15,801 bases of DNA from Nitrospinota bacterium. Lineage in GTDB: Bacteria > Nitrospinota > Nitrospinia > JACRGO01. The notes below the pieces were generated by a model. That model searched no databases, had not been told where the DNA came from, and saw nothing but the letters and a program-made list of their open reading frames with translations. The number at the start of each line of letters is the position of its first letter. Positions within the stretch are counted from its first letter, which is position 1. The DNA lies in NCBI GenBank assembly GCA_016212295.1, contig JACRGO010000093.1, positions 1 to 15,801 on the forward strand, in the 5' to 3' direction. Made by a program: the position numbers and the translations under genes. Shown piece by piece: positions 249-14,829 of this stretch.

Positions 249-1595
249 ATGAAAATTTATAAAATGTCCGCTTGCGTACCTGGGAGCAAGGAAAAAAACC
301 GCCATACCCATACCCTTCGCTTTTTGCCCTTCACCTTTCGCCCTTCACCCTTCGCTCTTTGCCCTTCGCCCTTTGCCTTTTGCCTGCTTTTGTTTTTTCT
401 TGTTGTTTCGGTTTCTTCATGCGTCTGTCCTCCCATTCCAAGGGAAAAGGCCGCTGGACCTCAAGGTTCTCTTATCAAATTAAAGGCCGGCGGCTTTCCT
501 TATTTTTCCGATGGCCTTGACAGGGAATCCCTCACGGCAGCGGTTGACAGGAGCCTTCATTACCTCAGGAAATTGCCCCAGGACCGGACCGTTTATTTTG
601 GTGAAGACGCAAGAACAGTGGGCGAGATGATAGAATCAATGCATTGTTTTTTGGAAATCCTGCGAAAGGAAAAGAACCCGGCTGGATTGAACCGGGCCGT
701 GCGCGGCCAATTTGATGTTTACCAGCCGCCGCCTATCGAGAAAAAAAACGAGACAACTCTTTTCACCGGATACTATGAGCCTGTCCTGGAGGGAAGCCCG
801 GAGCGGACCGATATTTTCCGTTATCCCCTATACAGGAAACCCGCTGACCTGGTCTCACTGGACCTTGGGGTGTTTCATCCACGGTTCAATGGAATGAGCG
901 TGGTGGGGAGATTCGGGGACGGGTCTTTCCTCCCCTATCACACGCGGAAGGCCATTGATGGGCGGGCGGCGCTTTCCGGAAACGGGCTGGAGCTGATATG
1001 GCTGCGGGACGTGGTGGACATTTTTTTCCTCCATATCCAGGGGTCCGGCAAAATAAAATTCCGTGACGGCAGGACCATCAATGTCAACTATGCCGCCTCC
1101 AACGGCAGGGAATACAAGAGCATCGGAAAGCTGTTCATTGATGAAGGGATTTTGCCCAAGGAAAAGGTCAACCTGGACTCAATAAAAACATATCTGAGGG
1201 AACATCCGGAGGAACGGGACAGGATACTGAGCTACAACGAAAGCTATGTCTTTTTCCGGGAGGTTGATGAAGGCCCTGTCGGGAGTATTTCGGAGCCGGT
1301 GACAGCCGGACGCTCCATTGCAACTGACAGCGGACTTTTCCCAAAGGGGGCCTTGGCGTTTATCGAGACTAAAATACCGGAGCTGGACGGGAAAGGCCAA
1401 TTGAAGTCATGGGAAAAGATCTCACGCTTTGTTTTGAACCAGGACACCGGTGGGGCGATCAAGGGGCCGAACCGGGTTGACCTCTTTTTCGGGAGCGGGG
1501 ATGAGGCCGGGAAAAGGGCCGGATTCATGAATCAGGAAGGGAATATCTACTTTTTGATCAAAAAACATGGCGCGGCATGGCCGCAACAAAAATAA
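249..1595 (+). CDS. mltA: Membrane-bound lytic murein transglycosylase A (lipoprotein)
   Basis: MltA cleaves the MurNAc-GlcNAc bond of peptidoglycan to form 1,6-anhydro ends, acting at the periplasmic face of the outer membrane. The MltA domain is marked by FTGYYEP near 780 and a long central barrel. The C-terminal 3D domain has DTGGAIKG followed by VDLFFG, whose Asp (codon 1479-1481) matches the catalytic Asp308 of E. coli MltA, then AGxRAGxxN. A hydrophobic run followed by V-S-S-Cys (Cys codon 420-422) looks like a lipobox; the mature protein would be about 391 aa, near the family size. The frame is open back to ATG 54, but that stretch is repeat sequence, so I prefer ATG 249 (or 264); no good Shine-Dalgarno marks either. 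The signal peptide is largely encoded by heptanucleotide repeats (313-382). The last residues (GAAWPQQK) are encoded by a dispersed hairpin repeat. It is convergent with recB. Confidence 0.88.
   Translation: MKIYKMSACVPGSKEKNRHTHTLRFLPFTFRPSPFALCPSPFAFCLLLFFLVVSVSSCVCPPIPREKAAGPQGSLIKLKAGGFPYFSDGLDRESLTAAVDRSLHYLRKLPQDRTVYFGEDARTVGEMIESMHCFLEILRKEKNPAGLNRAVRGQFDVYQPPPIEKKNETTLFTGYYEPVLEGSPERTDIFRYPLYRKPADLVSLDLGVFHPRFNGMSVVGRFGDGSFLPYHTRKAIDGRAALSGNGLELIWLRDVVDIFFLHIQGSGKIKFRDGRTINVNYAASNGREYKSIGKLFIDEGILPKEKVNLDSIKTYLREHPEERDRILSYNESYVFFREVDEGPVGSISEPVTAGRSIATDSGLFPKGALAFIETKIPELDGKGQLKSWEKISRFVLNQDTGGAIKGPNRVDLFFGSGDEAGKRAGFMNQEGNIYFLIKKHGAAWPQQK
313..382 (+). repeat. Ten tandem heptamers (CCCTTYG type), family A
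   Basis: Ten consecutive 7-bp units fill 313-382 with no indel. The consensus is C-C/T-C/T-T-T-C/T-G/A; CCCTTCG occurs at 313-319, 348-354 and 362-368, CCCTTCA at 327-333 and 341-347, and CCTTTTG at 376-382. In the mltA frame the array is translated into a Pro/Phe/Cys-rich stretch just before the hydrophobic core of the signal peptide. Confidence 0.85.
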
Positions 1596-1599
1596 ATTT
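1570..1599 (-). repeat. Dispersed GCGGC/GCCGC hairpin element, copy 1
   Basis: A 30-bp sequence matches 12318-12347 at 29 of 30 positions. On the - strand it reads as an AT-rich lead, then GTTGCGGC, loop CAT, GCCGCGC. It overlaps the 3' end of mltA, whose final codons and stop lie inside it. A third copy of the hairpin part is at 5530-5547 with a different loop. Confidence 0.75.
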
Positions 1600-1682
1600 G
1601 ATTAATAAGCAATTTCAGCTTAATTCAGCTCCCTGGCCATTAATGCTCAATCAAGTTTTCTCTGATTTTTTCAGAACAGCGG

Positions 1683-1773
1683 AATATCGAACAAGGAATA
1701 ATGAATGTCAAAGGATCGGGATTTGAAGCAATTTTGCCTTCGACATTCCTTGTTCGATATTTGATATTCAGAT
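1683..1773. repeat. Inverted repeat built of heptamers (TTCGATA type), family B
   Basis: Perfect 17-bp arms at 1683-1699 and 1745-1761 are separated by 45 bp. Both arms are in 7-bp phase. The right arm reads TTCGACA (1739-1745), TTCCTTG, TTCGATA, TTTGATA, TTCAGAT (to 1773). The left arm, on the other strand, reads TTTGACA, TTCATTA, TTCCTTG, TTCGATA (1712-1685). It sits between the convergent ends of mltA and recB and could act as a bidirectional transcription barrier, although neither side has a proper T-tract. Confidence 0.8.
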
Positions 1774-1809
1774 TTTAACCATTGGAATCAAATGTCAATA
1801 AAAATCCTT

Positions 1810-4800
1810 TCAAACCAACCCCAGCCCCCGGCCCAGGCCGCGCACCAGGTCCACTGCCGGCAGGTCCCTGAAAATCCCGAATTCCGGGCCGCGATCCGAG
1901 CCCACCCCCCTCAGGAATATATAATAAACTCCGCCGAAATGTGTTTCATAGTCGTACCCAGGGACCCTGAGGGCAAGATAGCGGTCCAGGGCCACCGCAT
2001 AGATATGGTACTGGAGGATGTAATATCCCTCCTCCATTGCCCTCCTCAAGGCGTCCTGGCCGTAATCCTCCACCCTTGCCCCCAGATAATTTGATTTCCA
2101 GTCCGCCAGGTAGTAGCGTCCGCCGGATTGAAACACAAGGTCCATGAATCCCTTCATGAATCCCCTGGCCGGGGCGAAGTCCAGGCGGCCTATTCTTCGC
2201 GGGAAACCGTCCTCCACATTCGCCTGTCCATGCTTTTGGAAAATCCCCTTTAACTCCCTGGGTGATACCGGACTCAGGGGAAAGTGAAACTCCATTTCAT
2301 TCACGCGCTCCTTTTGGGAAATTCCGGACAGCTTCAGATTCCCGCCACGCCGGTCCAAGGGGGTTTCCAGGACGTGCCTGACCATCCGGCAAACCGGCGC
2401 GGTCCACTCGGACCCGAACCCGTATCGCGCCAAGTTACTTTCAACCACGGAGGAAGGGTCTTCCTTCGTGAAATCGATCTCCTCAAAAATTGCATGAAGC
2501 GCGGTGCCGGCCTTGGCGCCCCTTGGAAAAGTGAAGATGCTTGGCCGGGCGTCCATTGGTTCCGTCTTATCGGCTGCCTCCATTCCATGCGGCGCGTCCC
2601 AGTCCGGCAGATCAGCCAAGACCGGCTTGTTAAATACCAATGAGGAAAAGGAAGAAATCTTCCATGCCTCTTCCACCTTCCCCCGGAAAGTCCGGCAGAT
2701 CAAGGACGCGGTTCCGGTTTTATAGATTTCAGGGACCATGCCTGCCTCCACTGACAGAATGGAAACTCCGATGCTTCCCTTCCCCTCCTCCGCCAACTGG
2801 TTGAGGCCGTTCATCAATTCCACATCCGGCATACTGCGGACAGCGCCTTGATTCAAAAATTCATCCGGCGCATTCCGGTTGTGAAACAGATACGCCAGGG
2901 CGGAGGTTTCAGCGGAGTTGATCCCGCCCCATGCCACATAGCATCGATGCTTGGCCCTGGTGAGCGCCACGTAACAGAGCCGCAGGTTCTCGGCGAGCAA
3001 TTCCTTTTCCGCGTCCGCCTTATGCGCTTCCCTTTCCTCCGGCCCGATGGCCAGGGTGAGGCGTCCGGCCTCGTCATGAAATAAAAAGCCATTGCTCCGG
3101 TCCTCGCGCCTCAAACTGGACCCGCTCCACAGGAAGGGACAAAAAACTATCGGGTACTCCAGGCCCTTGCTCTTGTGAATGGTCACGATCCTCACCGCGT
3201 TTTCGTCGCTCTCCAGGCGCAGTTCATGCTCCTTTTCCCTGGCCGGGTGGTCCGGGTCCATTTGACCGCGCAGCCACGCCAGGGTCCCGTTCATGCTCAG
3301 ACATTTTTCAAGCGACTTTTGGTGCAGGACCTCGGAGACGTGCAAAAGGTTCGTGACGCGGCGTTCCCCGTCCGGGAATTTCAAAAGCCGCCGCCGCACT
3401 CCTTCCCTTGCCATGAAGGCCCTGAACATCCTGATGAATCCATAGCGGTTCCATGTCTCGTTATATTCGCGGAAACGGAAAAGCGCCGCGCTCCACTCCC
3501 CGGCGTCTTCCGCCAATTTTTCCAGGTCTTCTCCACGGACTCCGAGGAGGTCCGTGGCCAGGGCCGCCTTCACCAGTCCAATGTTGCCGGGCTCCATTAC
3601 CGCTGCAAGGACCCGTTGGACCTCTCCCGCTTCCGGGGAATCGAAGAGGTTTCCCGCGCTCTCCAGGACCGATGGAATTCGCAGGGACTTCAGGACCTCC
3701 TGGCTCAGCCGCGCCTCCTTGTGGGTGCGGGTGAGAACGGCGATGTCCCTGGGCTCCAGACGCCTTTCTCCGATGGCGGCGTCTCCTTTTTCGCCAAGGG
3801 CGATAAGCCGGGCGGCTTCAGCAGCCACAGCGGCGGCTATGCGGTCCCTGGCCTTGGCTTTATTCATGGACTTGGCCGGGTCCGCCTCCCCGTCTCTATC
3901 CAAAAACCAGATATGAAGCGGGGGCTCGCGGCGTCCGAGAATAGCCAAGGCGGACTTTCCCGTTTCTTCGGCGGCAAGCGCGGGCCTGAATTGAATTCCC
4001 TCATATACAAAGGGATTTCCGGTCCTGGAAAAAACCGCGTTGACCGCCTCCACCAGTCCCGGCTCGGAGCGGTAATTCTTCCCCAAGGTGTAAGCCTGGC
4101 TTACCTTGGAGGCCGCTTCCAGGTAGGCATGGACGTCCGCCCCACGAAATCCATAAATCGCCTGCTTAGGGTCTCCGATAAGAAACAGGACGCTTTCCCG
4201 GCCATGGAACACGGTTTTGAAGATGTCCCACTGGACCGGGTCAGTGTCCTGGAACTCGTCGATCAAGGCGGCCTTGAATCTCGCGCGAAGGGTGTCGGCC
4301 AGGACCGGTCCTCTGGCTTTATCCTTCAAGGGATTTCGTAAATCGGTCAGCAGATCACCGAAGGAGCGGAGATTTTTTTCCCTCTTCTTCCGGCGCAACT
4401 CCTTTTCCGCGTAATAAAAAAGCTCATATTTAAGACAGAGGAGATGGTTGTCCAATGCCTCGGTAAGGGTCCCGGCCTCATTTTTAAGATCTTCGCAAAG
4501 GGCGAAGAAGGGATGCGCGGGCGCGGCCTGGCCCTTGTTCATGGAGGCGGTTAATTTTGAGGCGGTGTATTTTTCAAATCCCTCGAACAGGGAAGGATTG
4601 CTTGCGGTGGAGGTGGAAAAGAGCTCCATTTTTTTCAGCAGGCCGGGGATATCCTGCTTCCTGTAGGTTTTCCGGTTCAGGTTGGCGGTGAGAAGGATGT
4701 TTTCGATCTCCGCTTGCGCGCCGGGCCACGCCTCCCGGACTTTTTTAAGGACGCTCCTGAAGGCGTCCGGGGAGCAGGGCCAGGTTTCAGGCTTGGGGAC

Positions 4801-5412
4801 TATGTTCATATCCGGGTGCTCGATATGGCGGCCTATGGATTTCTTCAGGTTTTCCGGGGTGAATTTGTTGTCCAGGGCGTGGCAGGCCAGTTCCGGCGTT
4901 GCGCCGTAAATTTTCTTCCTCCAGAAATCCTCCACTATTTCTTCCACAAGGCCTTCCTGGTCGTCCGTGATTTCGGTATCGAAGAGGGAGCCGCTTTCAA
5001 AGGCGTTTTCGCTAAGGGCCCTGCGGCAAAATCCGTGTATGGTGAAGATGGCGGCTTCGTCAAAGGAGCGTATGGCGTCGTTCAGGAGCCTGGCCGTTTC
5101 CCCTGAGCCAATCCTGTCGAGGTACTCCTTCAGGGACGCGTCTGGGGAAGAGGGATTTTTAAGTTCTTGCAGCGCCTGGCGCAGGATTTCGAGGGTCCGG
5201 CTCTTCAGTTCCTGCGTGGCCGCCTCCGTGAAGGTGACCACCAGGATTTCGTTGACCGGCATCCTCTCTTCAACGACCAGGCGAAGAAAAAGGCGGGTGA
5301 TGACATAGGTTTTTCCGGTCCCGGCGCCGGCCTCTATGAGGTTTGAGCCTTTTAAGGGGCACTGGAAAAGATCGAATTCCTGCATTTGTTTTTTAGAAAT
5401 TTCAAATTTCAA
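1810..5412 (-). CDS. recB: Exodeoxyribonuclease V beta subunit (RecB)
   Basis: RecB is the helicase-nuclease subunit of RecBCD, which processes double-strand breaks and degrades foreign linear DNA. Numbered from 5412 (1200 aa; E. coli RecB has 1180), the UvrD-type helicase motifs are: Walker A EAGAGTGKT (27-35), motif II IDEFQDTDP (384-392), GDPKQAIYGFRGAD (413-426), motif V TIHKSKGLEYP (744-754) and motif VI YVALTRAKHR (814-823). The C-terminal nuclease shows H973 (GTALH), D1091 (KGFMDLVF), D1104 and K1106 (DWKSNYLG) and QY at 1134-1135, all expected of an active RecB rather than AddA. The longest frame starts with TTG at 5412, inside a repeat. ATG 5385 leaves a 15-residue lead close to E. 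coli RecB and is the more likely start. No Shine-Dalgarno is visible for either. recC and recD are not in the window. Confidence 0.93.
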   Translation of the reverse strand: MKFEISKKQMQEFDLFQCPLKGSNLIEAGAGTGKTYVITRLFLRLVVEERMPVNEILVVTFTEAATQELKSRTLEILRQALQELKNPSSPDASLKEYLDRIGSGETARLLNDAIRSFDEAAIFTIHGFCRRALSENAFESGSLFDTEITDDQEGLVEEIVEDFWRKKIYGATPELACHALDNKFTPENLKKSIGRHIEHPDMNIVPKPETWPCSPDAFRSVLKKVREAWPGAQAEIENILLTANLNRKTYRKQDIPGLLKKMELFSTSTASNPSLFEGFEKYTASKLTASMNKGQAAPAHPFFALCEDLKNEAGTLTEALDNHLLCLKYELFYYAEKELRRKKREKNLRSFGDLLTDLRNPLKDKARGPVLADTLRARFKAALIDEFQDTDPVQWDIFKTVFHGRESVLFLIGDPKQAIYGFRGADVHAYLEAASKVSQAYTLGKNYRSEPGLVEAVNAVFSRTGNPFVYEGIQFRPALAAEETGKSALAILGRREPPLHIWFLDRDGEADPAKSMNKAKARDRIAAAVAAEAARLIALGEKGDAAIGERRLEPRDIAVLTRTHKEARLSQEVLKSLRIPSVLESAGNLFDSPEAGEVQRVLAAVMEPGNIGLVKAALATDLLGVRGEDLEKLAEDAGEWSAALFRFREYNETWNRYGFIRMFRAFMAREGVRRRLLKFPDGERRVTNLLHVSEVLHQKSLEKCLSMNGTLAWLRGQMDPDHPAREKEHELRLESDENAVRIVTIHKSKGLEYPIVFCPFLWSGSSLRREDRSNGFLFHDEAGRLTLAIGPEEREAHKADAEKELLAENLRLCYVALTRAKHRCYVAWGGINSAETSALAYLFHNRNAPDEFLNQGAVRSMPDVELMNGLNQLAEEGKGSIGVSILSVEAGMVPEIYKTGTASLICRTFRGKVEEAWKISSFSSLVFNKPVLADLPDWDAPHGMEAADKTEPMDARPSIFTFPRGAKAGTALHAIFEEIDFTKEDPSSVVESNLARYGFGSEWTAPVCRMVRHVLETPLDRRGGNLKLSGISQKERVNEMEFHFPLSPVSPRELKGIFQKHGQANVEDGFPRRIGRLDFAPARGFMKGFMDLVFQSGGRYYLADWKSNYLGARVEDYGQDALRRAMEEGYYILQYHIYAVALDRYLALRVPGYDYETHFGGVYYIFLRGVGSDRGPEFGIFRDLPAVDLVRGLGRGLGLV

Positions 5413-5530
5413 TTGTCAAATAACAAATAAATCCCAATAACTAAAATTACAAGGAACAAACAAGGAAATGGGATTGTTTTGGACATTCAGTAATTGTAAT
5501 TTGTCATTTGGGATTTTGTTTTCCTTTTGG
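5400..5530. repeat. Heptamer arrays (TTTCAAA and GTAATTT types), family E
   Basis: The left part has CAA every 7 bp at 5403, 5410, 5417 and 5424 (units TTTCAAA, TTTCAAT, TGTCAAA, TAACAAA), then drifts through 5455. The right part (5489-5530) again runs in 7-bp steps: AGTAATT, GTAATTT, GTCATTT, GGGATTT, then TGTTTTC and CTTTTGG. The halves are loosely inverse: ATCCCAA on the left against its near complement TTTGGGAT on the right. The array covers the TTG start of the recB frame and would form its leader. Confidence 0.75.
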
Positions 5531-5547
5531 TTGCGGCTCTGCCGCGC
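5530..5547 (-). repeat. Dispersed GCGGC/GCCGC hairpin element, copy 3
   Basis: On the + strand it reads GTTGCGGC, loop TCT, GCCGCGC, identical to the reverse complement of the copies at 1570 and 12318 except for the loop (CAT there). The GCGGC/GCCGC stem is unchanged. In all three copies the closing GCGC is followed by one variable base and ATG. Confidence 0.65.
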
Positions 5548-5692
5548 AATGTTATCTTATGGCGCTGTTTGCTGGGACAGGACTTTAACCATGACAAGAA
5601 GATATGGAGAAGGAGTAAGCCCTGCCCCCTGTAAACTATTCTCTCCATTTTACATGGAAACTTCATTCATGTTAAACCGGAAGAATATCTCA

Positions 5693-5747
5693 CACAAAGC
5701 CACGAAGACACGAAGATTTTTTCTTGTAATCCTTGTGGCTTTGCGTG
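5693..5747. repeat. Inverted array of 8-bp words (CACGAAGA type)
   Basis: Three contiguous octamers, CACAAAGC (5693-5700) and CACGAAGA twice (5701-5716), are followed by a T-rich spacer. Inverse words at 5730-5747 read on the other strand as CGCAAAGC and CACAAGGA. The outer parts can pair into an imperfect hairpin. The build matches the elements at 133-202 and 13364-13436. Confidence 0.75.
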
Positions 5748-5850
5748 AGGCCATCTCTTAGACGGATTCAGGCTTGGCTCACAGATAAGCTTTAAAAAAA
5801 TGCTAAACTAAAATCCTTGTTAATTGGAATTTTGAGCCTATACCCAGGGC

Positions 5851-6319: not shown

Positions 6320-6325
6320 AAATGT

Positions 6326-6373: not shown

Positions 6374-7438
6374 ATGACGATGCCATCTTTATATGGAATA
6401 ACGCATTCAAACCGTGATTTTTCAGATTCGTATTATTGGGGTAAGAATCAGTTCAACTCGTCTTTCCCTGTTGCCCTGACTTGTTTCATGAGAGATTCCG
6501 GCATTAATCCCGTATATTTAAGACTCAATAGCGACCGGAAAATATTTCATGAGGAAATTGCAGTTAGCGAACTTTTTAATACGACATTGTCAAACGACAA
6601 GCTCTATTTCTCTTTTGAATCCCGTTTTGAACCATTCAAGCAATTCGTTCATGACGAATTAGAAACAATTGATTTGGTTGTAATGAATGCCGAAGCTAAT
6701 GATTTCTTGCAGCCTCTCGAAATAAAACTCACAACTTTGCCGGATAATACGACGGAAGGTCTTCCAGAGGATGAATACGGCTGTGAGCTTGTTATCCGCT
6801 CTGCAACCATGCGATACATGGCTCTTTCAATGGCACAATCACTTCAGAAAAAAACAAAAGAAATAAGAGAAATTTTTGAGCCCGCGTGTTTAAAGGTTCG
6901 AGGATGGGATAACGCCGATGAAATCAGGAACAAAATGCCCGCAATTCTGGAGGCGCTTGAAGCGTTTATCTCAAAATATAGGCGATATGAAAAACCGTTC
7001 TTGATGCAGCCTATTTGGAAAACTATCGGCAAGTCGCCTGTTTTGGCGGACAACTGTTTGGACATCTTTATTTGGAGCGATTTTGCCTTAACACGGCTGT
7101 TTATGGATTCTGCCTTAGAGAATGATTCACCGAGAATCAGCCGTCAGCAAAGAGCGGCAGTTCGCCTTGCAAGGTTTCTATTCGAGGTTTCAAGAGCGGG
7201 AAAAGTATATCAAGAACCTATTTACGACGGTATGAGTCTTGGTAACCAAACAGACAAAGAGTTTGCCATCTCCGGCAATAAAACTCATTCTTACATGAAA
7301 TGCAAAAGATTAACTAAACCAGTTATCCATAAAAATCAAATAAAGAAAATAATACTTGGCGGCGGGCAAAAGTATTTGAGCCCAGAGAGACGCTTTGACG
7401 CTATTATTTATTTTTCTACAGACTTGTTTGACGATTAG
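6374..7438 (+). CDS. HindVP-like type II restriction endonuclease
   Basis: The product (354 aa) has an N-terminal block GITHSNRDFS...YWGKNQFNSSFP that I recognise from HindVP-type restriction enzymes, whose prototype cuts GRCGYC. A PD-(D/E)xK-like nuclease core is visible: D100 in ETIDLVV and E116-x-K118 in PLEIKLTTLP. The methyltransferase gene begins 8 bp after the stop, and that gene's Shine-Dalgarno (AGGA) overlaps this stop codon, so the genes are translationally coupled. ATG 6374 is followed by ATG 6380; neither has a strong ribosome binding site. The gene is much more AT-rich than recB or the mot genes, as expected for an acquired system. Identity as the restriction enzyme is strong from context. 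The exact recognition site is inferred from family memory. Confidence 0.82.
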   Translation: MTMPSLYGITHSNRDFSDSYYWGKNQFNSSFPVALTCFMRDSGINPVYLRLNSDRKIFHEEIAVSELFNTTLSNDKLYFSFESRFEPFKQFVHDELETIDLVVMNAEANDFLQPLEIKLTTLPDNTTEGLPEDEYGCELVIRSATMRYMALSMAQSLQKKTKEIREIFEPACLKVRGWDNADEIRNKMPAILEALEAFISKYRRYEKPFLMQPIWKTIGKSPVLADNCLDIFIWSDFALTRLFMDSALENDSPRISRQQRAAVRLARFLFEVSRAGKVYQEPIYDGMSLGNQTDKEFAISGNKTHSYMKCKRLTKPVIHKNQIKKIILGGGQKYLSPERRFDAIIYFSTDLFDD

Positions 7439-7446
7439 GAACTTTT

Positions 7447-8472
7447 ATGCGCTTGAGAACAATAGATTTATTTTCGGGCGGCGGCGGCCTCTCCTTAGGT
7501 TTTATTAACGCAGGCTTTGACATTATGGCCGCTTATGACAATTGGCTTCCGGCTAGATTGTTGTATAAGAGTAATTTCAAACATCCAATTTACGACATTA
7601 ATCTGTCAAGCAAGGAAGCAATTGAAAACATTCGTCAATTTGACGCCAATATTATCATCGGCGGCCCCCCATGCCAGGATTTTTCCTCTGCCGGCAAAAG
7701 GGATGAAAATTTGGGCAGGGCCGATCTTACCATTGCTTATGCAAATATAATTAAGAATATTCTTCCTTCATTTTTTGTAATGGAAAATGTTGATAGAGCT
7801 TTTAAAAGCAAAACATTTTCAAAGGCAAAGAACATTTTCAAAAAAGCCGGTTATGGCTTGAGCATCAGGATTCTGGATGCGAGTCTTTGCGGAGTCCCTC
7901 AACTAAGAAAACGGCTCTTTGTTATTGGTCAACTTAAAGGTCCCGACGGCTTTTTAGATTCATTACTTGATATCAAGCGATCATCTAAGCCGATGACGTT
8001 GAGAGATTATTTTGGCTCCCGTTTAGGGATAGAGCATTATTACAGACATCCGAGAAGTTATAAAAGGCGAGGCATTTTTAGCATCAATGAACCAAGCCCC
8101 ACAGTTCGCGGAGTCAATCGTCCTATTCCCAACGGCTACCCCGGCCATGCCGGAGATCCATCGCCAATTACAGATAAAATCCGTCCATTAACAACTAAAG
8201 AACGTAGCATGATACAAACTTTTCCAGAATCGTTTATTCTCGTCGGCAACAAAACCGATGTTGAGCAAATTATCGGCAATGCTGTGCCGGTAAAGCTGGC
8301 TGAATTTGTTGCTCTTCGGTTGAAGGAATATTTTCTGCAAGAGGGTCTTATTACAGAGAGCGACTTTCGCAATAGAGTTCTTACATTTCCAGCTTTACCG
8401 AAACATCAAAGGAGAATAAATATTTTGAATTCGTTGCGCAAACAACGTCAGCAGGCTCGGAACAGCGGATGA
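7447..8472 (+). CDS. DNA (cytosine-5)-methyltransferase of the restriction system
   Basis: This 341-aa enzyme transfers a methyl group from AdoMet to C5 of cytosine, protecting the host from the endonuclease encoded just upstream. The motifs are in canonical order: motif I DLFSGGGGLSLGF (7-19), motif IV GGPPCQDFS with the nucleophile Cys76, motif VI ENV (113-115), motif VIII QLRKR (152-156), motif IX RGVNRP (221-226) and motif X GNAVP (277-281). The short region between VIII and IX and the GVNRPIPNGY block resemble methyltransferases of GRCGYC systems such as HindVP; that specificity is an inference. AGGA 7 nt before ATG 7447 overlaps the preceding stop. The gene ends in an ATGA overlap with vsr, so all three genes form one operon. 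Confidence 0.93.
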   Translation: MRLRTIDLFSGGGGLSLGFINAGFDIMAAYDNWLPARLLYKSNFKHPIYDINLSSKEAIENIRQFDANIIIGGPPCQDFSSAGKRDENLGRADLTIAYANIIKNILPSFFVMENVDRAFKSKTFSKAKNIFKKAGYGLSIRILDASLCGVPQLRKRLFVIGQLKGPDGFLDSLLDIKRSSKPMTLRDYFGSRLGIEHYYRHPRSYKRRGIFSINEPSPTVRGVNRPIPNGYPGHAGDPSPITDKIRPLTTKERSMIQTFPESFILVGNKTDVEQIIGNAVPVKLAEFVALRLKEYFLQEGLITESDFRNRVLTFPALPKHQRRINILNSLRKQRQQARNSG

Positions 8473-8888
8473 CAGACTGTTTTTCTCCCTTTATGCGCTC
8501 GCAGGTGATGAGCGCAGTGCGCTCAAAGGGGAACAAATCGACAGAACTTTCCCTCATCAATATATTTCGTAATAAGTCCATCAAAGGTTGGCGCAGAAAT
8601 TACAAATTATTGGGGAGTCCAGATTTCGTATTTCCCAAAAAACGCACTGTAGTTTTTGCTGATGGTTGTTTTTGGCACGGCCATAAATGTCGCAATACTA
8701 AACCAAAACAGCATGCTGATTATTGGGCAAATAAAATACTGAGAAATACGGCAAGAGACAAATTCATTACGAGAACTTTAAAGCAGGCTGGATGGCATGT
8801 GATTAGAATTTGGGAATGTGAGATTAAGACGAATAAGTTGTCTAAAAAATTAAAATCATTATTCAAAGAAAATGAAACCGTCGCATAA
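8469..8888 (+). CDS. vsr: Very-short-patch-repair endonuclease Vsr
   Basis: Vsr nicks next to T:G mismatches that arise when 5-methylcytosine deaminates, so it repairs the mutational cost of the neighbouring methyltransferase. The 139-aa product has RSQVMSAVRSKGNKSTE at its N-terminus, the catalytic D52 in GSPDFVF, and CFWHGHKC with H70 matching E. coli His69. Zinc ligands C67, H72, C74 and C117 are all present, so it should be active. The ATG overlaps the methyltransferase stop (ATGA), a sign of coupled translation. E. coli Vsr works on Dcm sites; this one presumably matches the site of its own methyltransferase. Confidence 0.93.
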   Translation: MTDCFSPFMRSQVMSAVRSKGNKSTELSLINIFRNKSIKGWRRNYKLLGSPDFVFPKKRTVVFADGCFWHGHKCRNTKPKQHADYWANKILRNTARDKFITRTLKQAGWHVIRIWECEIKTNKLSKKLKSLFKENETVA

Positions 8889-9210: not shown

Positions 9211-9225
9211 TATAAACCAATCCCA

Positions 9226-9936
9226 ATGAACGGTAAACTGCCAGGCGTACGTAATGAGCTAAGAAAATCGGCCGACAAGGAAATAGCTAAACATTCTCAA
9301 GGATTCTTTAAAACAGGAAGCGGGCAGTATGGTGAAGGAGATAGATTCCTGGGAATCCGGGTCCCTGTGTTAAGAAAGCTGGCAAGGAAGCATCAGGGAA
9401 TTTCAATTGAAGAAGCCTCAAGATTGTTAGAGTCCCAATTCCACGAAGAGCGGTTGCTGTCTCTTTTCATGCTTATAAATATTTTCAAAAAGGCTGATGA
9501 GAAAAACAAGAAGGCCATTTACACCCTGTATCTCAATAGCACAAAATTCATCAACAACTGGGACTTAGTTGACTGTTCAGCCGGGCATATTGTCGGCGCG
9601 TATCTGCGGGAACGCAATAAGCGGCCGATTTACTGCCTTGCCGGTTCCAGAAATTTATGGGAACGCAGAATTTCAATTATGTCCACTTTCCATTTTATAA
9701 AAAACAGGGAATTCATTGACGCATTGAAAATTTCAGGGATTTTATTGCATGACAAGGAAGATTTGATCCATAAAGCTGTGGGCTGGATGCTCAGGGAGAT
9801 AGGGAAACGGGATATCAGGGCGGAAGAGAATTTTTTAAAAAAACACTACAAGGCCATGCCCCGCACCATGCTGCGGTATGCAATGGAAAAGTTTCCTGAA
9901 GAAAGAAGAAAAAAATATCTGAGGGGCAAAATATAG
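9226..9936 (+). CDS. alkD: AlkD-like DNA alkylation repair glycosylase
   Basis: AlkD-family proteins are all-helical HEAT-like repeat enzymes that excise positively charged alkylated bases (N3- and N7-alkylpurines) without flipping the base. In this 236-aa product the conserved blocks are NNWDLVDCSA, with W112 and D116 matching the B. cereus AlkD W109/D113 pair, WERR with R148, HKAVGWMLREIGK with W187, and the C-terminal MPRTMLRYAMEKFP. These residues define the DNA-binding cleft and suggest an active enzyme. The start (ATG 9226) has no clear ribosome binding site and follows an attC-like sequence by 16 bp. A strong terminator at 10055-10092 follows. Confidence 0.9.
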   Translation: MNGKLPGVRNELRKSADKEIAKHSQGFFKTGSGQYGEGDRFLGIRVPVLRKLARKHQGISIEEASRLLESQFHEERLLSLFMLINIFKKADEKNKKAIYTLYLNSTKFINNWDLVDCSAGHIVGAYLRERNKRPIYCLAGSRNLWERRISIMSTFHFIKNREFIDALKISGILLHDKEDLIHKAVGWMLREIGKRDIRAEENFLKKHYKAMPRTMLRYAMEKFPEERRKKYLRGKI

Positions 9937-10054
9937 AAACACCTGATCGTGCAGCCTGTGGAGTTCAGCCTCCCATCCGCTACATCACCCAGTTGGATGC
10001 AGGTCAAAAGGGAAATTGGGAGCATTCCAGAATTCTTGCACATACAACGAATAA

Positions 10055-10092
10055 GGCATGGAACGGTTTTAAACCGTTCCATACGCCTTTTT
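10055..10092 (+). terminator. Rho-independent terminator after alkD
   Basis: Twelve-base arms ATGGAACGGTTT and AAACCGTTCCAT flank a single T. The stem is extended by GGC/GCC with a small bulge and is followed by CTTTTTCC. The stem is almost perfectly complementary, and the T-run lies on the alkD side. Confidence 0.8.
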
Positions 10093-10095
10093 CCT

Positions 10096-10128
10096 TACCG
10101 CGAAAATGCAGCCGGGACGGCTGCGGTA
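10096..10128 (-). terminator. Hairpin behind the ABC ATPase gene, possible - strand terminator
   Basis: GCAGCCG-GGA-CGGCTGC (10108-10124) forms a 7-bp stem; read on the - strand it is followed by ATTTTCG. The outer words TACCGC (10096-10101) and GCGGTA (10123-10128) can pair instead, giving two alternative folds. It is either a weak terminator for the ATPase gene or a REP-like palindrome. Confidence 0.4.
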
Positions 10129-10183
10129 CGGGAACTTAAAACCAGACAGCGAAACGAAGAGGAAAAACAGCGCATGACTCATT

Positions 10184-10885
10184 TCAACTCCCGTTCTTCA
10201 CGCCCACTTCCTCCTCCACGATTTCCCCGTCCAGAATGGCTATGATCCTGCTCCCCCTTTGCGCCACCTTGGGGTCGTGGGTGACAAGGAGGATGGTCCC
10301 GCCGTCCTGGATGATGCGGTCGAATATCTTTAAAATCTCCTCGCCTGTTTTGGAGTCCAGATTCCCGGTCGGCTCGTCCGCCAGGATGATGGAGGGCCTG
10401 GTGATGATGGCCCTTGCGATGGAAACCCGTTGCTTTTCTCCACCGGACAGCTCGCTTGGGGAGTGGGCCAGGCGGTGGGAGAGGCCCACCTGGTCCAGGG
10501 CCTCCCTTGCCAGGTCCCTGCGCTCGCCCTTGGAATATCCCAGATAAAACAGGGGAAGTTCCACGTTCTTCACTATGGAAAGCCGCGGGATCAGGTTGAA
10601 GGTCTGGAAGATAAAGCCGATCTTCCCGCCCCGTATCACGGCCAATTCATGGTCGGAGAGGTCGGCCACCGGGTGGCCGTCGAAAATATAGGAACCCTTG
10701 TCCGGCCTGTCCAGGCAGCCGATGATATGCATGAGCGTTGATTTGCCGGAGCCGGAGGGGCCCTTCAGGACCACGTAGTCGTTTTTTTTTATGGTGAGGT
10801 TGACCCCTTTAAGCACCGGGACCTCGACCTTGCCTATGTGGTAGGTCCTGTATAGATCGTTTATCTCGATTACGTTTTCAAGCAT
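10184..10885 (-). CDS. ABC transporter ATP-binding protein, MacB/LolD type
   Basis: This 233-aa ATPase belongs to the MacB/LolD/FtsE-like class that powers FtsX-type permeases. It shows Walker A GPSGSGKST (42-50), Q-loop FIFQTFNLIPRLS with Q94, signature LSGGEKQR (146-153), Walker B IILADEPT with D170 and E171, the D-loop GNLDS and H-loop H203. The FQTFNLIPRLSIVKNVELPL block is typical of the MacB/LolD class. The gene lies downstream of the membrane fusion protein gene on the same strand, 162 bp apart. The expected permease does not follow: the next gene is alkD on the opposite strand. The ATG has no Shine-Dalgarno, because the leader is entirely a heptamer repeat. Confidence 0.92.
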   Translation of the reverse strand: MLENVIEINDLYRTYHIGKVEVPVLKGVNLTIKKNDYVVLKGPSGSGKSTLMHIIGCLDRPDKGSYIFDGHPVADLSDHELAVIRGGKIGFIFQTFNLIPRLSIVKNVELPLFYLGYSKGERRDLAREALDQVGLSHRLAHSPSELSGGEKQRVSIARAIITRPSIILADEPTGNLDSKTGEEILKIFDRIIQDGGTILLVTHDPKVAQRGSRIIAILDGEIVEEEVGVKNGS

Positions 10886-10893
10886 GGTTAGGG

Positions 10894-10970
10894 TTTCAGG
10901 GATCAGGTTTCAGTTATCAGGTTTCAGGGGACAGGGAACAGTTGACGGTTCTCAGTTTACAGGTAACGGT
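10894..10970 (+). repeat. Eleven tandem heptamers (NNNCAGG type), family D left part
   Basis: Eleven contiguous 7-bp units without an indel share the pattern NN(T/A)C(A/G)G(G/T). The first is TTTCAGG (10894-10900), then GATCAGG, TTTCAGT and so on to TAACGGT (10964-10970). The array directly abuts the start codon of the ABC ATPase (ATG at 10885-10883 on the other strand). Confidence 0.88.
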
Positions 10971-11007
10971 CCGCGGTAGGCCATTCACAACCGCCATTGG
11001 CTGAATC

Positions 11008-11049
11008 GCCCTCTGCCCTCTGCCCCCTGAAACCTGATAACTATTAACT
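11008..11049 (+). repeat. Six tandem heptamers (GNNNNCT type), family D right part
   Basis: Six contiguous 7-bp units end in CT: GCCCTCT twice (11008-11021), GCCCCCT, GAAACCT, GATAACT and ATTAACT (11043-11049). Units four and five are complementary to the CAGG-type words of 10894-10921 and would pair with them. The array overlaps the stop codon of the membrane fusion protein gene (11050-11048). Confidence 0.85.
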
Positions 11050-12310
11050 ATATTTTATCTTTTTCCACCCTCACCCTGCTTCCCTCCTTCAGGTTCAGGA
11101 TATCGATTGAGGAGATGATCTCCTCCCCCTCCTTTATTCCTTCAGCCACCACGGTGAAGTCCCAGTTGGAGAGGCCCAGCCGGAGGTCGCGCTTTTTCAC
11201 CATGCCGTTTTCCACAACGAAGACGTATTTAGAGTCCACTCGTCCCATAAGGAGATTCGTGGGGACAAGCAAGGCGCCTTGAATCTGGTCCACCATGATT
11301 TCCACGTCGCAGGACATCCCTGGCCGGAGAATTTCGCCTTGAGGGTCAAGGGAAATCTTAACGGAGACGGTGCGGCCTTCCTGTTTTTCCTGGGAGACCG
11401 TGGGTGATATTTCGTATAATTTCCCGGTGAATTTTTCGCCTGGATAGGAGTCGATGGAGATTTTCACCTCCTGCCCGGCGCGGATTTTATGCAGGTCCGC
11501 TTCATCCACCGGGGCGTGGATGTATATGGAGTTGTCGTCCATGATTTCCAACAGGGGCGTTCCGGGCAGGACCATTTCTCCAAGCTCCACGGACTTAAGG
11601 GAGACGATCCCGCCGAAGGGGGCCTTGATGGCCAGATAATTTTGCTGGATCTGGGCGATTTTCAGGGACTCCTCAAGTTGCCTGATTTCCGCCGTCGCGG
11701 CCAGCATCTCTTTTTCCTTGAGCACCACGGTCTCCTTGCCGGCAACGGCCGAATCGTTGGCGGCCTTCGCCACATCAAAATTCCTGACAGCGGAATCCAG
11801 TTGCTGGGTGGAATAGATCCCCTGCTTCATCATGTCCTTTGTACGGTTAAGGGCGGACGCCGCCTCCTTAAGGGTGGCCTCGGTTTCCGATACCCTGGAG
11901 TCCACGAGCTTTTTTTCCAACTCATAGGCGGCCTTGGCTTTTTCGTAACGGACCCTGGCAAGGTTAAGATTGGCCGCCGTCATTTTGGTGTTGGCCGCGG
12001 CCTCTTCCGGGTCGAGGGTGATGAGTTCGTCTCCCTCCTTGACGCGGTTCCATTCGCTGAAATTGACGCTTGTGACCCGACCGTTGATCCTTGAGGCCAC
12101 CTTGGCTATACGGTCCGCCTTCAGGGTCCCGGAGGAAGTGGAAGTCACTGTGTACAGGAAGAGACCGCGGGCGATTTTTCTTGTCTTGACGGTTATGGTG
12201 TTAAGGTCCCGGAAATACCAATATCCTCCGCCGGCCATAGCGGCAAGGACCGATAGGGAAAGCAGGGTTTTAATCATTCGCCCCGGGAGCGATGTTTTTT
12301 TCTTTTGCAT
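11048..12310 (-). CDS. MacA/HlyD-type membrane fusion protein (efflux adaptor)
   Basis: This periplasmic adaptor would link an inner-membrane ABC transporter to an outer-membrane channel. The frame is open from 12334 (428 aa); numbering from there, a single N-terminal membrane anchor lies at 22-39. Two biotinyl-lipoyl half motifs follow (about 78-110, with V-x-x-V-x-F...V-x-x-G-D; and 236-266, APFGGIVS...G-x-x-V-x-P-G-x-x-L). Between them is a long coiled-coil hairpin (about 111-233), then a beta-barrel (268-350) and a membrane-proximal domain. Two earlier in-frame ATGs (12334, 12316) lie in or at the edge of a dispersed hairpin repeat. I therefore prefer ATG 12310 (MQKKKTSL...), which begins just outside it. 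Its likely partner is the ABC ATPase downstream; no permease or TolC is present. Confidence 0.88.
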   Translation of the reverse strand: MQKKKTSLPGRMIKTLLSLSVLAAMAGGGYWYFRDLNTITVKTRKIARGLFLYTVTSTSSGTLKADRIAKVASRINGRVTSVNFSEWNRVKEGDELITLDPEEAAANTKMTAANLNLARVRYEKAKAAYELEKKLVDSRVSETEATLKEAASALNRTKDMMKQGIYSTQQLDSAVRNFDVAKAANDSAVAGKETVVLKEKEMLAATAEIRQLEESLKIAQIQQNYLAIKAPFGGIVSLKSVELGEMVLPGTPLLEIMDDNSIYIHAPVDEADLHKIRAGQEVKISIDSYPGEKFTGKLYEISPTVSQEKQEGRTVSVKISLDPQGEILRPGMSCDVEIMVDQIQGALLVPTNLLMGRVDSKYVFVVENGMVKKRDLRLGLSNWDFTVVAEGIKEGEEIISSIDILNLKEGSRVRVEKDKI

Positions 12311-12317
12311 ATTCATA

Positions 12318-12347
12318 GCGCGGCATGGCCGCAACCAAAATAAATTT
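12318..12347 (-). repeat. Dispersed GCGGC/GCCGC hairpin element, copy 2
   Basis: It differs from 1570-1599 at one of 30 positions. On the - strand it reads through GTTGCGGC, CAT, GCCGCGC and ends two bases before an ATG in the macA-like frame. It therefore overlaps the annotated 5' end of that gene and replaces any Shine-Dalgarno sequence. Confidence 0.75.
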
Positions 12348-12413
12348 CCATGTATTCAAACGTTCGATGGATAAAGAGGAGGGAGGATGCGGTGAGGAAA
12401 GAACTTAACGCCC

Positions 12414-12448
12414 TTCGATGTTGGACGTTCGATGTTCAATGTTCGATA
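12414..12448 (+). repeat. Five tandem heptamers (TTCGATG type), family B second copy
   Basis: Five contiguous units TTCGATG, TTGGACG, TTCGATG, TTCAATG and TTCGATA fill 12414-12448, in the gap between motB1 and the membrane fusion protein gene. The words match those in the inverted element at 1683-1773, so family B occurs twice in the window. Confidence 0.82.
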
Positions 12449-12522
12449 TTCTGTTTTCCCCCTTAGATATTCAGCGTCTCGTTGATTTATACGCGGGAAA
12501 AATGGAAATTCCTATACTATTT

Positions 12523-13299
12523 TTACGGTTCGTTGCCTCTTTCCCACTTCGTCATGGCGAGGATATTCATTCTTCTGTTGGCGGACCGCCCCTCTTCAGT
12601 TTCGTTTACCGATATAGGGCGCGCGTCTCCATAGGCGCCTATTGATATCTTTTTCGGAGAAAATCCGCACTGGTCCACGAAAAATTTTACCATGGCGGAG
12701 GCCCTTGCCGCGGAAAGCTCCCAGTTGGAAGGGTAATCGGTAGCGGCCACGGGCTGGTTGTCAGTATGCCCTTCTATCGTAAGAACAGTCCCTGCTTCTT
12801 TCAATATCTCCACGGTCTTTCTCAAGGGGAAGCGCGCCTCACGCCTTATTTCGGAGCTGGCTGGGCTGAAGAGATAATCGGCATTAAACCTTAATATAAG
12901 CCCCCTTTCCGTAAAATCAAAGGCCACGGGACTAACCTTCCTCCCGTCTGGAGCGTCTTTTTGAAAGAGCGGTTCAGCGGCTTGCTTGATCCTTTCGAAT
13001 CCTTCCGCCTCTTCCGGATAGTACAGATGGCTTATCTCATCCACACCTTTTACCGGGAGGGGGATATACCTTTCCCTGCTTCTAAAATCAAACACCGGGA
13101 CCTTTTCCACGCCTTCCGTTCCGGCTATTCCAAACGCGAACTGAAAAGAACTCGCCACTTTCTTAAGCTTCGCCACATCGACCTCGGATATGGCGTATAA
13201 AACAACAAACAGGGCGAAGAGGAGGGTAATGAAATCCGCGTAAGAAATGAGCCATCTCTCAAGGTTTTCATGTTCCTCTTCCTTTTTTTTTCTTGCCAT
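12523..13299 (-). CDS. motB: Flagellar stator protein MotB (copy 1)
   Basis: MotB anchors the stator to peptidoglycan and forms the ion channel with MotA. The 258-aa product has a basic N-terminus, one membrane segment (about 17-38) with the ion-binding Asp D22 in WLISYADFITLLFALFVVL, and a C-terminal OmpA-like domain. Peptidoglycan-binding residues are intact: GHTDNQP with D180, NWELSAARA with R199, and RSANRRMNI. The start has a GGAG 11 nt upstream. A run of nine A follows within the first codons (lysine codons), a possible slippage point. It is downstream of motA, separated by 161 bp holding an inverted octamer element. The N-terminal DNA is strikingly similar to motB2. Confidence 0.94.
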   Translation of the reverse strand: MARKKKEEEHENLERWLISYADFITLLFALFVVLYAISEVDVAKLKKVASSFQFAFGIAGTEGVEKVPVFDFRSRERYIPLPVKGVDEISHLYYPEEAEGFERIKQAAEPLFQKDAPDGRKVSPVAFDFTERGLILRFNADYLFSPASSEIRREARFPLRKTVEILKEAGTVLTIEGHTDNQPVAATDYPSNWELSAARASAMVKFFVDQCGFSPKKISIGAYGDARPISVNETEEGRSANRRMNILAMTKWERGNEP

Positions 13300-13363
13300 G
13301 CGCGGTTTTTCTCCAGATACTTACACGTTCGTTACAGGAATTCGTCTCGCAAAATCTATTTAC

Positions 13364-13436
13364 CGCAAAGGCGCAGAGATCGCAAAGAAAATCTTTTTCC
13401 AATTATTAGCTCTGCGTCCTTTGCGTCTTTGCGGTG
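13364..13436. repeat. Inverted array of 8-bp words (CGCAAAGA type)
   Basis: The left arm has CGCAAAGG (13364-13371), CGCAGAGA (13372-13379), one extra T and CGCAAAGA (13381-13388). An AT-rich spacer follows. The right arm (13409-13436) reads on the other strand as CGCAAAG, CGCAAAG and CGCAGAGC, each separated by one or two bases. It lies between motA and motB1, two genes that are normally co-translated, and could form an intercistronic hairpin in their mRNA. Confidence 0.8.
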
Positions 13437-13460
13437 ATAAAAAATTTCAAATATCCTTAA

Positions 13461-14231
13461 TCAGGACTCAAAGGAGGATTTTCTCAATTTTTCCTCGAGA
13501 AAGGCATTAAGCTGGTTTTCCAGTATCCTCGGATTCAATCCTTCCTGGATGCACATTACCCCTTTTAAAATGAGTTCCTTGAGCAAGACCTCGCCCTTTG
13601 CCTTTCTCTTTATCTTGGATGAAATGGGCAGGAATATCAGGTTGGCCGATCCCACGCCGTATACAGTGGCGACAAAGGCCACGGCTATGCCTTCCCCTAT
13701 CTGGGCAGGATTGGACATGACCTCCATGACATGGATAAGCCCCAATACCGCCCCCAATATGCCCACGGTCGGAGCGTATCCGCCCAAGGATTCAAAGACC
13801 TTGGCCGCCACCATCATTTCCTCCTCCATTGTCTCGATATCTCTTTCCATTATATCAAGGACCGCCTTGGGCTCGTAGCCGTCCACAGTGTAATCAATTG
13901 CGTCCTTCAGGAATTTGTTCTTAACATCGGTTGTCCTGTCCTGAAGCGCCAGTATTCCTTCTTTTCTCGCTATCCCGGAAAAATTCACCAGTATCCCCAC
14001 ATAATCCTGCGGGTGCTCCTTTGGGGTCGAAAATATGGTAAGAAAATAAACGCCGGCTATTTTCAAATCGCTGAAGTTAAAGCTCAATATTGATGCCCCA
14101 AAGGTGCCGCCGAAAACAATGATCGCGGCGGTCAATTGCAGGATGGCGCTTACATGCCCCCCTTCCAGCACCTGGCCTCCAAGGATTGATGCAATGGAGA
14201 GGATTGGTCCGATTATTGAGGTTAATTCCAT
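13461..14231 (-). CDS. motA: Flagellar stator protein MotA
   Basis: MotA is the four-helix inner-membrane stator subunit that converts ion flow through MotA/B into torque. In the 256-aa product, membrane segments are near 5-22, 33-52, 150-170 and 183-205. The cytoplasmic loop has the charged stretch ARKEGILALQD (88-98), equivalent to the rotor-facing region of E. coli MotA. The two channel prolines are present: P154 in APTVGILGAVLGL and P202 in FLPISSKIK. The start codon has no obvious Shine-Dalgarno in the AT-rich leader. It lies 33 bp after the DUF3303-like gene and 161 bp before motB1. Confidence 0.94.
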   Translation of the reverse strand: MELTSIIGPILSIASILGGQVLEGGHVSAILQLTAAIIVFGGTFGASILSFNFSDLKIAGVYFLTIFSTPKEHPQDYVGILVNFSGIARKEGILALQDRTTDVKNKFLKDAIDYTVDGYEPKAVLDIMERDIETMEEEMMVAAKVFESLGGYAPTVGILGAVLGLIHVMEVMSNPAQIGEGIAVAFVATVYGVGSANLIFLPISSKIKRKAKGEVLLKELILKGVMCIQEGLNPRILENQLNAFLEEKLRKSSFES

Positions 14232-14264
14232 GTGAGTTATTTGTTATTATTGTTCATTTAGTTT

Positions 14265-14546
14265 TTATTTGCCGCCGCAATATTTGGAAAAGTCCTTCAA
14301 GGGATGTATGGGCGCCAAATCCCATGAATATACATCCCTGAAATGTCTTATGCAAAGGTAAAAGGCGTCTATATTGTCCGCCTCTATGATGAAAAACCCC
14401 TTTCTTGCCCCATAGAACCCGTATTTGCCTATGATCTTAAAGGCAAAGTGCCCCGTCTCCATCTCCCTTTCCCAGGAAAGGATTTTGCTGCTGACCTCTT
14501 CGTAACGAGTATCCGGCAGCATCTCGAATTCAGCTAAAAAGAACAT
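14265..14546 (-). CDS. Small DUF3303-like protein of unknown function
   Basis: The 93-aa product begins MFFLAEFEMLPD and contains GKYGFYGARKGFFIIEADNID followed by WDLAPIHPL. The pattern of a short beta-strand, a helix, then G-x-x-x-x-x-x-x-G-F-x-I-x-E-A-D and a final strand matches small ferredoxin-like proteins such as DUF3303. I cannot assign a biochemical role. A perfect AGGAGG (14560-14555) lies 8 nt before the ATG, one of the best ribosome binding sites in the window, so it is clearly translated. Its position between motB2 and motA suggests co-transcription with the stator genes. Confidence 0.75.
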   Translation of the reverse strand: MFFLAEFEMLPDTRYEEVSSKILSWEREMETGHFAFKIIGKYGFYGARKGFFIIEADNIDAFYLCIRHFRDVYSWDLAPIHPLKDFSKYCGGK

Positions 14547-14605
14547 GCCCTTTTCCTCCTTTTTTTAAAATTTCGTAATAGTTCACCCCTATGGACAGTT
14601 ATTAA

Positions 14606-14751
14606 CTCCAGCCTTCAGGCTGGAGCCTGCGAACAAACTAAGTAGGGCTTTAGCCCTGACTGTATTTGCCTGTCAGTTCACGACGCTCAGGCAGTAAAGT
14701 CATGGCTAAAGCCTGGTAGTTGTTTCCGTTTCTCCGCCATAAATGGCGGAG
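14606..14751. repeat. Cluster of five hairpins between motB2 and the DUF3303-like gene
   Basis: Five consecutive palindromes are visible: CTCCAGCC/GGCTGGAG (14606-14625, loop TTCA), AGGGCT/AGCCCT (14644-14657, loop TT), TGCCTG/CAGGCA (14667-14693), GGCT/AGCC (14704-14713) and CTCCGCCAT/ATGGCGGAG (14732-14751, loop AA). All stems are perfect over the given bases. GGCTTTAGCC-type words are typical of REP-like families. On the - strand mRNA these would lie between two stator-region genes. Confidence 0.75.
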
Positions 14752-14801
14752 TTATTAGGGATAGACAAGATACGCAGGATATTTTGCTTTTATATTATTC
14801 C

Positions 14802-14829
14802 AATCTGAAATCTGAAATCCGCAATTTAA
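14802..14829 (+). repeat. Short heptamer array (AATCTGA type), family I
   Basis: AATCTGA occurs twice in tandem (14802-14815), then AATCCGC and AATTTAA, all in 7-bp phase. The array ends five bases before the stop codon side of motB2 (14835). Confidence 0.7.

Follow-up and report, generated by a model that had tools for sequence, protein, structure and literature searches.

The 15,801-bp contig JACRGO010000093.1 of a Nitrospinota bacterium (the window; contig 47 of a 237-contig, 3.74-Mb draft genome) carries tandem arrays of 7-bp units. We consider it fairly probable (roughly 60%) that each of these repeats is a local example of a dispersed intergenic element with a body or arms built of degenerate tandem units, which were made by local duplication in steps of one unit. 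The elements of the window, named by family, are listed below.

313..382, plus strand: array A, 10 units of the CCYTTYG/CCCTTCA type (direct reading; Tandem Repeats Finder [TRF])
1675..1776, unstranded: B-type hairpin element, NNNNGAA heptamers plus their complement (inverted repeat, fold, and alignment)
5391..5555, unstranded: E element, NNNCAAA heptamers on the left, inverted TTTGNNN heptamers on the right, and a GC hairpin end (TTGCGGCTCTGCCGCGCAATG)
5689..5749, unstranded: hairpin in 8-bp steps, ACACGAAG type (inverted repeat), with the architecture of the heptamer elements at another unit length
10892..11049, unstranded: D element, NNNCAGG heptamers, inner heptamers, and then a complementary array
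12312..12373, unstranded: G element, GC hairpin CGCGGCATGGCCGCAAC (profile search and BLAST overlay)
12397..12521, unstranded: B-type copy, units at 12414 to 12448 together with the right-hand part of the dispersed element, which is conserved
13362..13435, unstranded: hairpin in 8-bp steps, CGCAAAGG/CTTTGCGT type (inverted repeat and fold)
14760..14836, unstranded: I-type repeat, AATCTGA heptamers at 14802 to 14829, adjoining the stop codon of a MotB-like gene

A 7-bp period marks the non-coding DNA of the host

All nine heptamer stretches that the original prediction had placed in the window were found where it put them, with lag-7 identities of 0.54 to 0.77 versus about 0.27 at neutral lags in non-coding DNA. 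TRF independently assigned a period of 7 (or 14) to A, the left part of E, D, and I and a period of 14 to positions 12414 to 12451. The wider analysis covered the window plus 100 other host contigs, taken up to 20 kb from the start of each, for a total of 1.17 of 3.74 Mb. Self-match was compared with that of 10 dinucleotide shuffles, and a local lag array was called at a score of at least 14. The original prediction had proposed such a comparison over intergenic DNA, and it gave a sharp lag-7 peak in gaps and none in genes. Non-coding DNA matched itself at lag 7 with a frequency of 0.315 versus 0.290 in the shuffles (z = 35), with harmonics at lags 14 and 21 and a smaller peak at lag 8 (z = 25), whereas coding DNA (lag-7 match, 0.246) had no peak at 7 and showed the codon period only. 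Our own gene calls were crude (coding fraction, 74%; the restriction-modification genes of the window were missed), so that the DNA counted as non-coding contains some genes; this dilutes the lag-7 signal and does not create it.

Counting arrays gave the same contrast. Non-coding DNA contained 117 lag-7 arrays, whereas the shuffles contained about 0.3. Lags 4 to 6 and 8 to 13, counted after the removal of 5 of the 100 extra contigs that were fully N masked, had 0 to 10 arrays each, about 10-fold fewer than lag 7; lag 14 is the harmonic. The 117 lag-7 arrays against 0 to 10 at other lags are an excess of heptanucleotides over other unit lengths, as described for long simple sequence repeats (LSSRs). 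The dinucleotide shuffles and the coding DNA rule out chance or composition as the origin of the arrays. For the whole genome, we estimate 350 to 400 such arrays, built from dozens of words.

The arrays lie mostly in dispersed elements and are often paired in inversion

The arrays had been predicted to be unrelated. Their words are indeed many, but the data do not support free-standing, unrelated repeats, as E, B, D, and I are members of dispersed families of intergenic repeats and the word of A recurs. When each array was taken with 80-bp flanks, similar DNA was found elsewhere (E ≤ 1e-6) for 102 of the 117; some of these matches reflect word similarity alone, and often they extend over 100 to 190 bp at 80 to 98% identity. 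Full copies of E and B, once aligned, proved to be discrete elements with GC-rich hairpin caps and no obvious terminal inverted repeat. The window families are multicopy, dispersed, and non-coding, in the manner of miniature inverted-repeat transposable elements (MITEs).

Copy numbers were obtained by nhmmer profile searches of the 1.17 Mb with pieces of the window. The E element had 154 matches (145 intergenic; full-length copies were aligned), and G had 71, with 31 copies in the BLAST overlay; G also caps many E elements. There were 22 matches to the B element at 1675 to 1776, 21 to D, and 25 to I, all 25 of them intergenic. The B-type copy at 12397 to 12521, whose array consists of five TTCGATG/TTGGACG/TTCAATG units (12414 to 12448), had 23 matches to its array half and 12 copies in the BLAST overlay, and related copies were aligned. 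The 8-bp-step hairpins at 5689 to 5749 and 13362 to 13435, both left out of the original prediction, had 16 and 25 matches, respectively. The search with A returned A alone; exact copies (0 mismatches) of its doublet word, however, number about 18 and are spread over about a dozen contigs.

An inverted partner, defined as a reverse-complement match of at least 20/28 at most 250 bp away, was present for 51 of the 111 arrays that span 28 bp or more and for 0 shuffled arrays. Opposite-strand pairs of this kind, known from Geobacter metallireducens, are represented in the window by B and D. The arms of B (1675 to 1714 and 1737 to 1776; 40 nt each) are 75% complementary and fold at -32 kcal/mol (z = -4.6), and the 40-nt arms of D are 80% complementary (fold z = -5.0). 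The other two foldable inverted repeats of the window are the 8-bp-step hairpins, that at 5689 with a z of -7.6 and that at 13362, which has 31-nt arms with 77% complementarity, at -35.9 kcal/mol (z = -6.6). The window copy of E showed no significant fold (z = -0.95), the I-type repeat and the 12414 array folded no better than shuffles, and the inverted-repeat listing of the window contained no partner near A. The idea that all hairpins share one strand polarity, with an A-rich 5' arm, was rejected (31 versus 18).

The words are diverse. Among the 117 arrays there are 47 distinct consensus necklaces, words change within arrays, and there is no fixed consensus word per class of the G. metallireducens kind. 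The 47 non-redundant words, aligned over rotations and strands, nevertheless share a weak preference, roughly TGWMAWY: their grammar score was 2.23, versus 1.72 ± 0.08 for column-permuted words and 1.74 ± 0.08 for random GC-matched intergenic heptamers. Words prone to slippage, a recent common ancestor for some of the families, or selection may account for this grammar.

Two further loci bear on the structure of the elements. At about position 4190 of locus L159, a perfect palindrome (GGGCACGATGCATCGTGCCC) stands in place of part of a B array and resembles a repetitive extragenic palindromic (REP) sequence inserted into the array. On one contig (L091), near-identical degenerate 10-unit arrays occur at 2743 to 2814 and 3477 to 3548, 730 bp apart; a degenerate array can therefore be duplicated together with its flanks.

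Copies differ by whole units, and unit similarity declines along arrays

Similarity between units declines with their distance. In 60 arrays with at least 6 units, mean unit identity at distances 1 to 6 was 0.759, 0.694, 0.666, 0.616, 0.567, and 0.530, and it was about 0.52 at distances 6 to 8. Since the arrays had been picked on neighbor similarity, the fair test is distance 2 versus distances of at least 3. Within arrays, this difference was +0.077 ± 0.011 and was positive in 46 of 60.

Copies of the same family differ by whole units. Pairwise indels between E copies peaked at 7 bp (213, versus 82 at 6 bp and 45 at 8 bp), whereas the control family R, a non-heptamer family of the same genome, had no 7-bp indel peak. 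Counted per copy, indels of 7 or 14 bp numbered 36 in E and 0 in the controls R and G. Among I copies, two of six small indels were exactly 7 bp, and the other four were 1 to 2 bp. The absence of indels that the original prediction had described holds inside the window arrays, but the arms of the B element at 1675 to 1776 differ by whole 7-bp units, and elsewhere in the genome a single core word recurs at both 8- and 7-bp steps within one array (L277). Together, the decay of unit similarity and the whole-unit differences between copies argue for local tandem duplication and loss (slippage) rather than for a maintained motif.

On the reading that we favor, units would be gained and lost by replication slippage, one unit per step, in non-coding DNA, where steps that are not a multiple of 3 are harmless. 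Point mutation would then diversify the words while the phase is retained, and template switching across the hairpin could, on weaker grounds, keep the arms matched. Separately, copies of the elements would spread to new gaps, presumably mobilized by an enzyme. The common unit length would thus represent the step that slippage prefers, mostly 7 and more rarely 8 or 9, and not a common ancestor of the words, and no regulatory role need be assumed.

Other step lengths and related genomes

Seven is the dominant step and not a universal one. Inverted pairs in 9-bp steps (TTGGTTNAA with AACCAANNN) also occur in the host genome, as do some 8-bp arrays. Arrays in 9-bp steps (AATTGGTTN/AACCAANNN) were seen at L169 (9348 to 9449), L175 (5047 to 5717), L171 (140 to 226), and L170 (8076 to 8152); those at L169 and L175 have an inverted counterpart nearby, in the layout of the 7-bp elements. 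A relative of the same genus (G001; L202, L211, and other loci) has 9 lag-7 and 10 lag-8 arrays in 131 kb, and its 8-bp arrays are inverted pairs of GGAGTNNT with TCCANTAC.

The original prediction inferred one process that makes or maintains 7-bp steps. The making of such steps agrees with the data: a shared step across many words, confinement to gaps, gain and loss by units, and decay along arrays fit one process duplicating in 7-bp steps. A maintained motif does not agree with the decay, and a dedicated 7-bp machine is not shown, given the 8- and 9-bp arrays of like layout in the host and the similar numbers of 8- and 7-bp arrays in the same-genus relative.

Lag-7 arrays occur at 69 to 300 per Mb (small samples) in relatives of the same genus and of family f6. 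Zero arrays were found in 14- to 60-kb samples of four other relatives from the class (G005, G010, G022, and G024; for the single-contig relatives G010 and G022, three 20-kb samples each) and in 50 kb of Escherichia coli K-12. In other phyla, 18 lag-7 arrays lie on 9 of 80 loci (1.2 Mb in total). One unrelated metagenome-assembled genome (MAG; locus L274) has an array of TCAGTTA, the reverse complement of TAACTGA. In an unrelated Verrucomicrobiales MAG (L271 and L273), runs of words switch in phase from CTGACAC to CTGATAC to CTGAACA, and the 7-bp duplication process there looks fresher.

Matched junctions were compared at two places. In the window, D occupies the entire gap between an ABC-ATPase gene, whose closest named relative is from a Nitrospinae MAG (74% amino acid identity), and a membrane-fusion gene, and 7 nt separate its beginning from the start codon of the ATPase gene. 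In G008, G017, and G019, the corresponding junction is a short gap that lacks D and any array. The motA junction of G011 is a short gap without the 13362 hairpin, although local gene order may differ there, and the motA region of G015 has other hairpin arrays, with CACCAG units in 8/7-bp steps and AATGAGC units. Because the relatives are only about 65 to 75% identical in genes, the direction of change, whether a gain in the host or a loss in the relatives, is likely rather than established.

Alternative explanations

Several points weigh against local unit-step duplication. Slippage alone produces neither inverted pairs nor dispersal, and it gives no reason for a step of 7. Neutral slippage with point mutation predicts neither the shared word grammar nor the uneven variation across the seven columns (variance, 0.031 versus 0.019 expected; 41% of arrays with P ≤ 0.05). 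The E family also has many indels of 1 to 3 bp. Finally, arms were only slightly more alike within an element (22.6/28) than across elements of a family (20.8/28), which gives strong homogenization of the arms little support.

Uneven columns and a shared grammar would instead suit sites kept by selection, and the arrays could be iterons bound by a repeat-reading protein or an RNA-binding regulator, with the inverted pairs as operators. Such a role has been proposed in print for the G. metallireducens repeats (PMC2700814) and for TAACTGA repeats (PMC4679880). It would also suit the position of D next to a start codon and the closeness of arrays to genes, as 48 of the 117 lie at most 20 bp from a gene end, where about 11 are expected. 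Arrays often fill short gaps, however, so that this nearness need not mean regulation, and their density is low in the divergent gaps that bear promoters (1.25 per 10 kb, versus 5.6 in co-directional and 6.4 in convergent gaps). A regulator would moreover have to read dozens of words (47 consensus necklaces) in one genome, and a fixed site would not decay along an array. We regard regulatory sites as an unlikely explanation. The enrichment in convergent and co-directional gaps, the many arrays near stop codons, and the strong folds of B, D, and the two 8-bp hairpins might also suggest RNA-level structures such as transcription terminators or mRNA 3' hairpins. This is very improbable, since shuffled sequence folds as well as E, I, and the 12414 array do, the window has no Rfam match, and a terminator requires no 7-bp phase.

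As a further alternative, the elements could be conventional mobile elements of the MITE or REP kind, with 7-bp units that are no more than the recognition sequence of the mobilizing enzyme. Copies are discrete (170 to 300 bp, 80 to 98% identity) and capped by GC hairpins, the D junction is empty in relatives, and the genome has two Y1-transposase genes. However, no obvious terminal inverted repeat was seen in the aligned copies, none of the nine families lies at either Y1 gene locus, and the 7-bp habit recurs with other words in unrelated phyla and in arrays without a listed inverted partner; on balance, we doubt this explanation. A REP or REPIN (paired REP) system with its REP-associated tyrosine transposase (RAYT) was rejected, as the 3.3-kb loci of the two Y1_Tnp genes contained no family match. 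An artefact of assembly or composition might be suspected in a draft of 237 contigs. Its probability is negligible, because the arrays are absent from dinucleotide shuffles and genes, are present in independent assemblies of relatives and in published Geobacter and Cyanothece genomes, and number zero in the E. coli K-12 sample and in those of G010 and G022.

A broader proposal is that non-coding DNA is duplicated in fixed 7-bp steps (in some relatives, 8 or 9) by a process restricted to certain lineages, which favors certain word types and also re-copies arrays from one hairpin arm to the other. Some Nitrospinota families would have this process, as would scattered members of the Bacteroidota, Verrucomicrobiota, and Planctomycetota, whereas other lineages of the same class would lack it, and the short tandemly repeated repetitive (STRR) sequences of cyanobacteria, the TAACTGA repeats, and the paired sites of Geobacter would be its outputs. 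We offer this proposal tentatively and think it rather unlikely.

Other observations in the window

Array A has a lag-7 identity of 0.71 and a lag-14 identity of 0.82 and lies in an open frame upstream of, and continuous with, an MltA-family lipoprotein gene. If the ATG at 264 is the start, A encodes much of a lipoprotein-like leader (..FRPSPFALCPSPFAFCLLLFFLVVSVSSC..; window 264 to 500), so this heptamer array within the MltA-family frame may have turned coding. At the other end of the same gene, a copy of the GC hairpin G (1566 to 1602) supplies the last codons and the stop (..HGAAWPQQK, stop).

At one end of the contig, positions 1 to 140 have up to 8 copies (about 99% identity) in the sampled DNA; the assembly was probably broken here by a mobile element of recent origin. 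Near the other end, positions 15597 to 15743 are an R element, a family with 64 matches in the 1.17 Mb and without heptamers; a copy of R interrupts a B element in L164. Positions 6374 to 8888 hold a restriction-modification cassette with a HindVP-type restriction endonuclease, a C-5 cytosine methyltransferase, and a Vsr mismatch endonuclease (Pfam), bordered by long non-coding stretches. The window gave no Rfam match at the gathering score. CRISPR was ruled out, as the array units are contiguous and lack spacers.

Relation to known repeats and significance

The original prediction knew of no named class that covers this set of repeats. There is indeed no formal class, but both a heptanucleotide excess and paired inverted 7- and 8-mer arrays have been published. 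The phenomenon has already been seen piecemeal in other bacteria; the host adds scale, many words, a decay test, and matched junctions. Close in layout are the "predicted global regulator binding sites" (classes 1 to 3) and H4 elements of G. metallireducens, which are tandem octamers (GTTGCTYN) or heptamers (MTYCTGA) in opposite-strand pairs with variable spacing, present in tens of copies, largely intergenic, and interpreted as regulator sites (PMC2700814). Like the host elements, they are multicopy, paired inverted tandem arrays, and MTYCTGA is of the same type as AATCTGA in I. Going by the published description, G. metallireducens has a few fixed words and 3 to 5 units per site, whereas in the host the words run to dozens and the degenerate units of an array to about 14, words change in phase, and copies differ by 7 or 14 bp.

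TAACTGA arrays are intergenic direct repeats in Beggiatoaceae, Cyanobacteria, and Bacteroidetes, with indels in 7-nt increments between Cyanothece strains and repeat-free gaps in relatives (MacGregor, PMC4679880). They share with the host arrays the intergenic heptamers, the 7-nt indels, the empty gaps in relatives, and, in some genomes, mixed heptamers. They differ in that Maribeggiatoa has one exact word with rare near-variants, mostly just upstream of start codons, and one indirect repeat only. TAACTGA is not the unit of any window array.

The STRR arrays of cyanobacteria resemble the host arrays as intergenic heptamers but are near perfect and use few words. Three repetitive heptanucleotides are described in Calothrix PCC 7601 (PMC4692102). 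The G-quadruplex heptamers GGGNATC of Xanthomonas and Nostoc (PMC4692102) are, like the host units, overrepresented in non-coding DNA and underrepresented between divergent open reading frames; they are G rich and prefer four units, whereas the host words are mostly not of the G-run kind. More generally, heptanucleotides are the commonest class of long simple sequence repeats in most prokaryotic genomes studied (Mrazek et al. 2007, as cited in PMC4679880), and the cause proposed is slippage of a polymerase with a contact length of 7 nt (Mrazek et al. 2007, as cited in PMC4679880 and PMC4692102). As summarized in those citing papers, 7-nt units exceed other long units across bacteria, as here, but LSSRs are defined on runs longer than statistically expected, whereas the host arrays are degenerate, often paired in inversion, and dispersed. 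In Porphyromonas gingivalis, a minisatellite inside a MITE has been described (PMC4596501), which likewise is a tandem repeat carried by a dispersed element; there it concerns one MITE, and in the host 7-bp units occur in many families.

A non-exhaustive search of the open-access literature found no publication uniting the heptanucleotide, TAACTGA, and Geobacter reports and no test of the explanation of the 7-bp excess by a 7-nt polymerase contact. With arrays in the host, array-free sampled relatives, empty matched junctions, and decay along arrays, the step length and its genetic cause become testable by comparison. One mutational habit may have produced, as by-products, several repeats that were described separately and in part read as regulatory sites.

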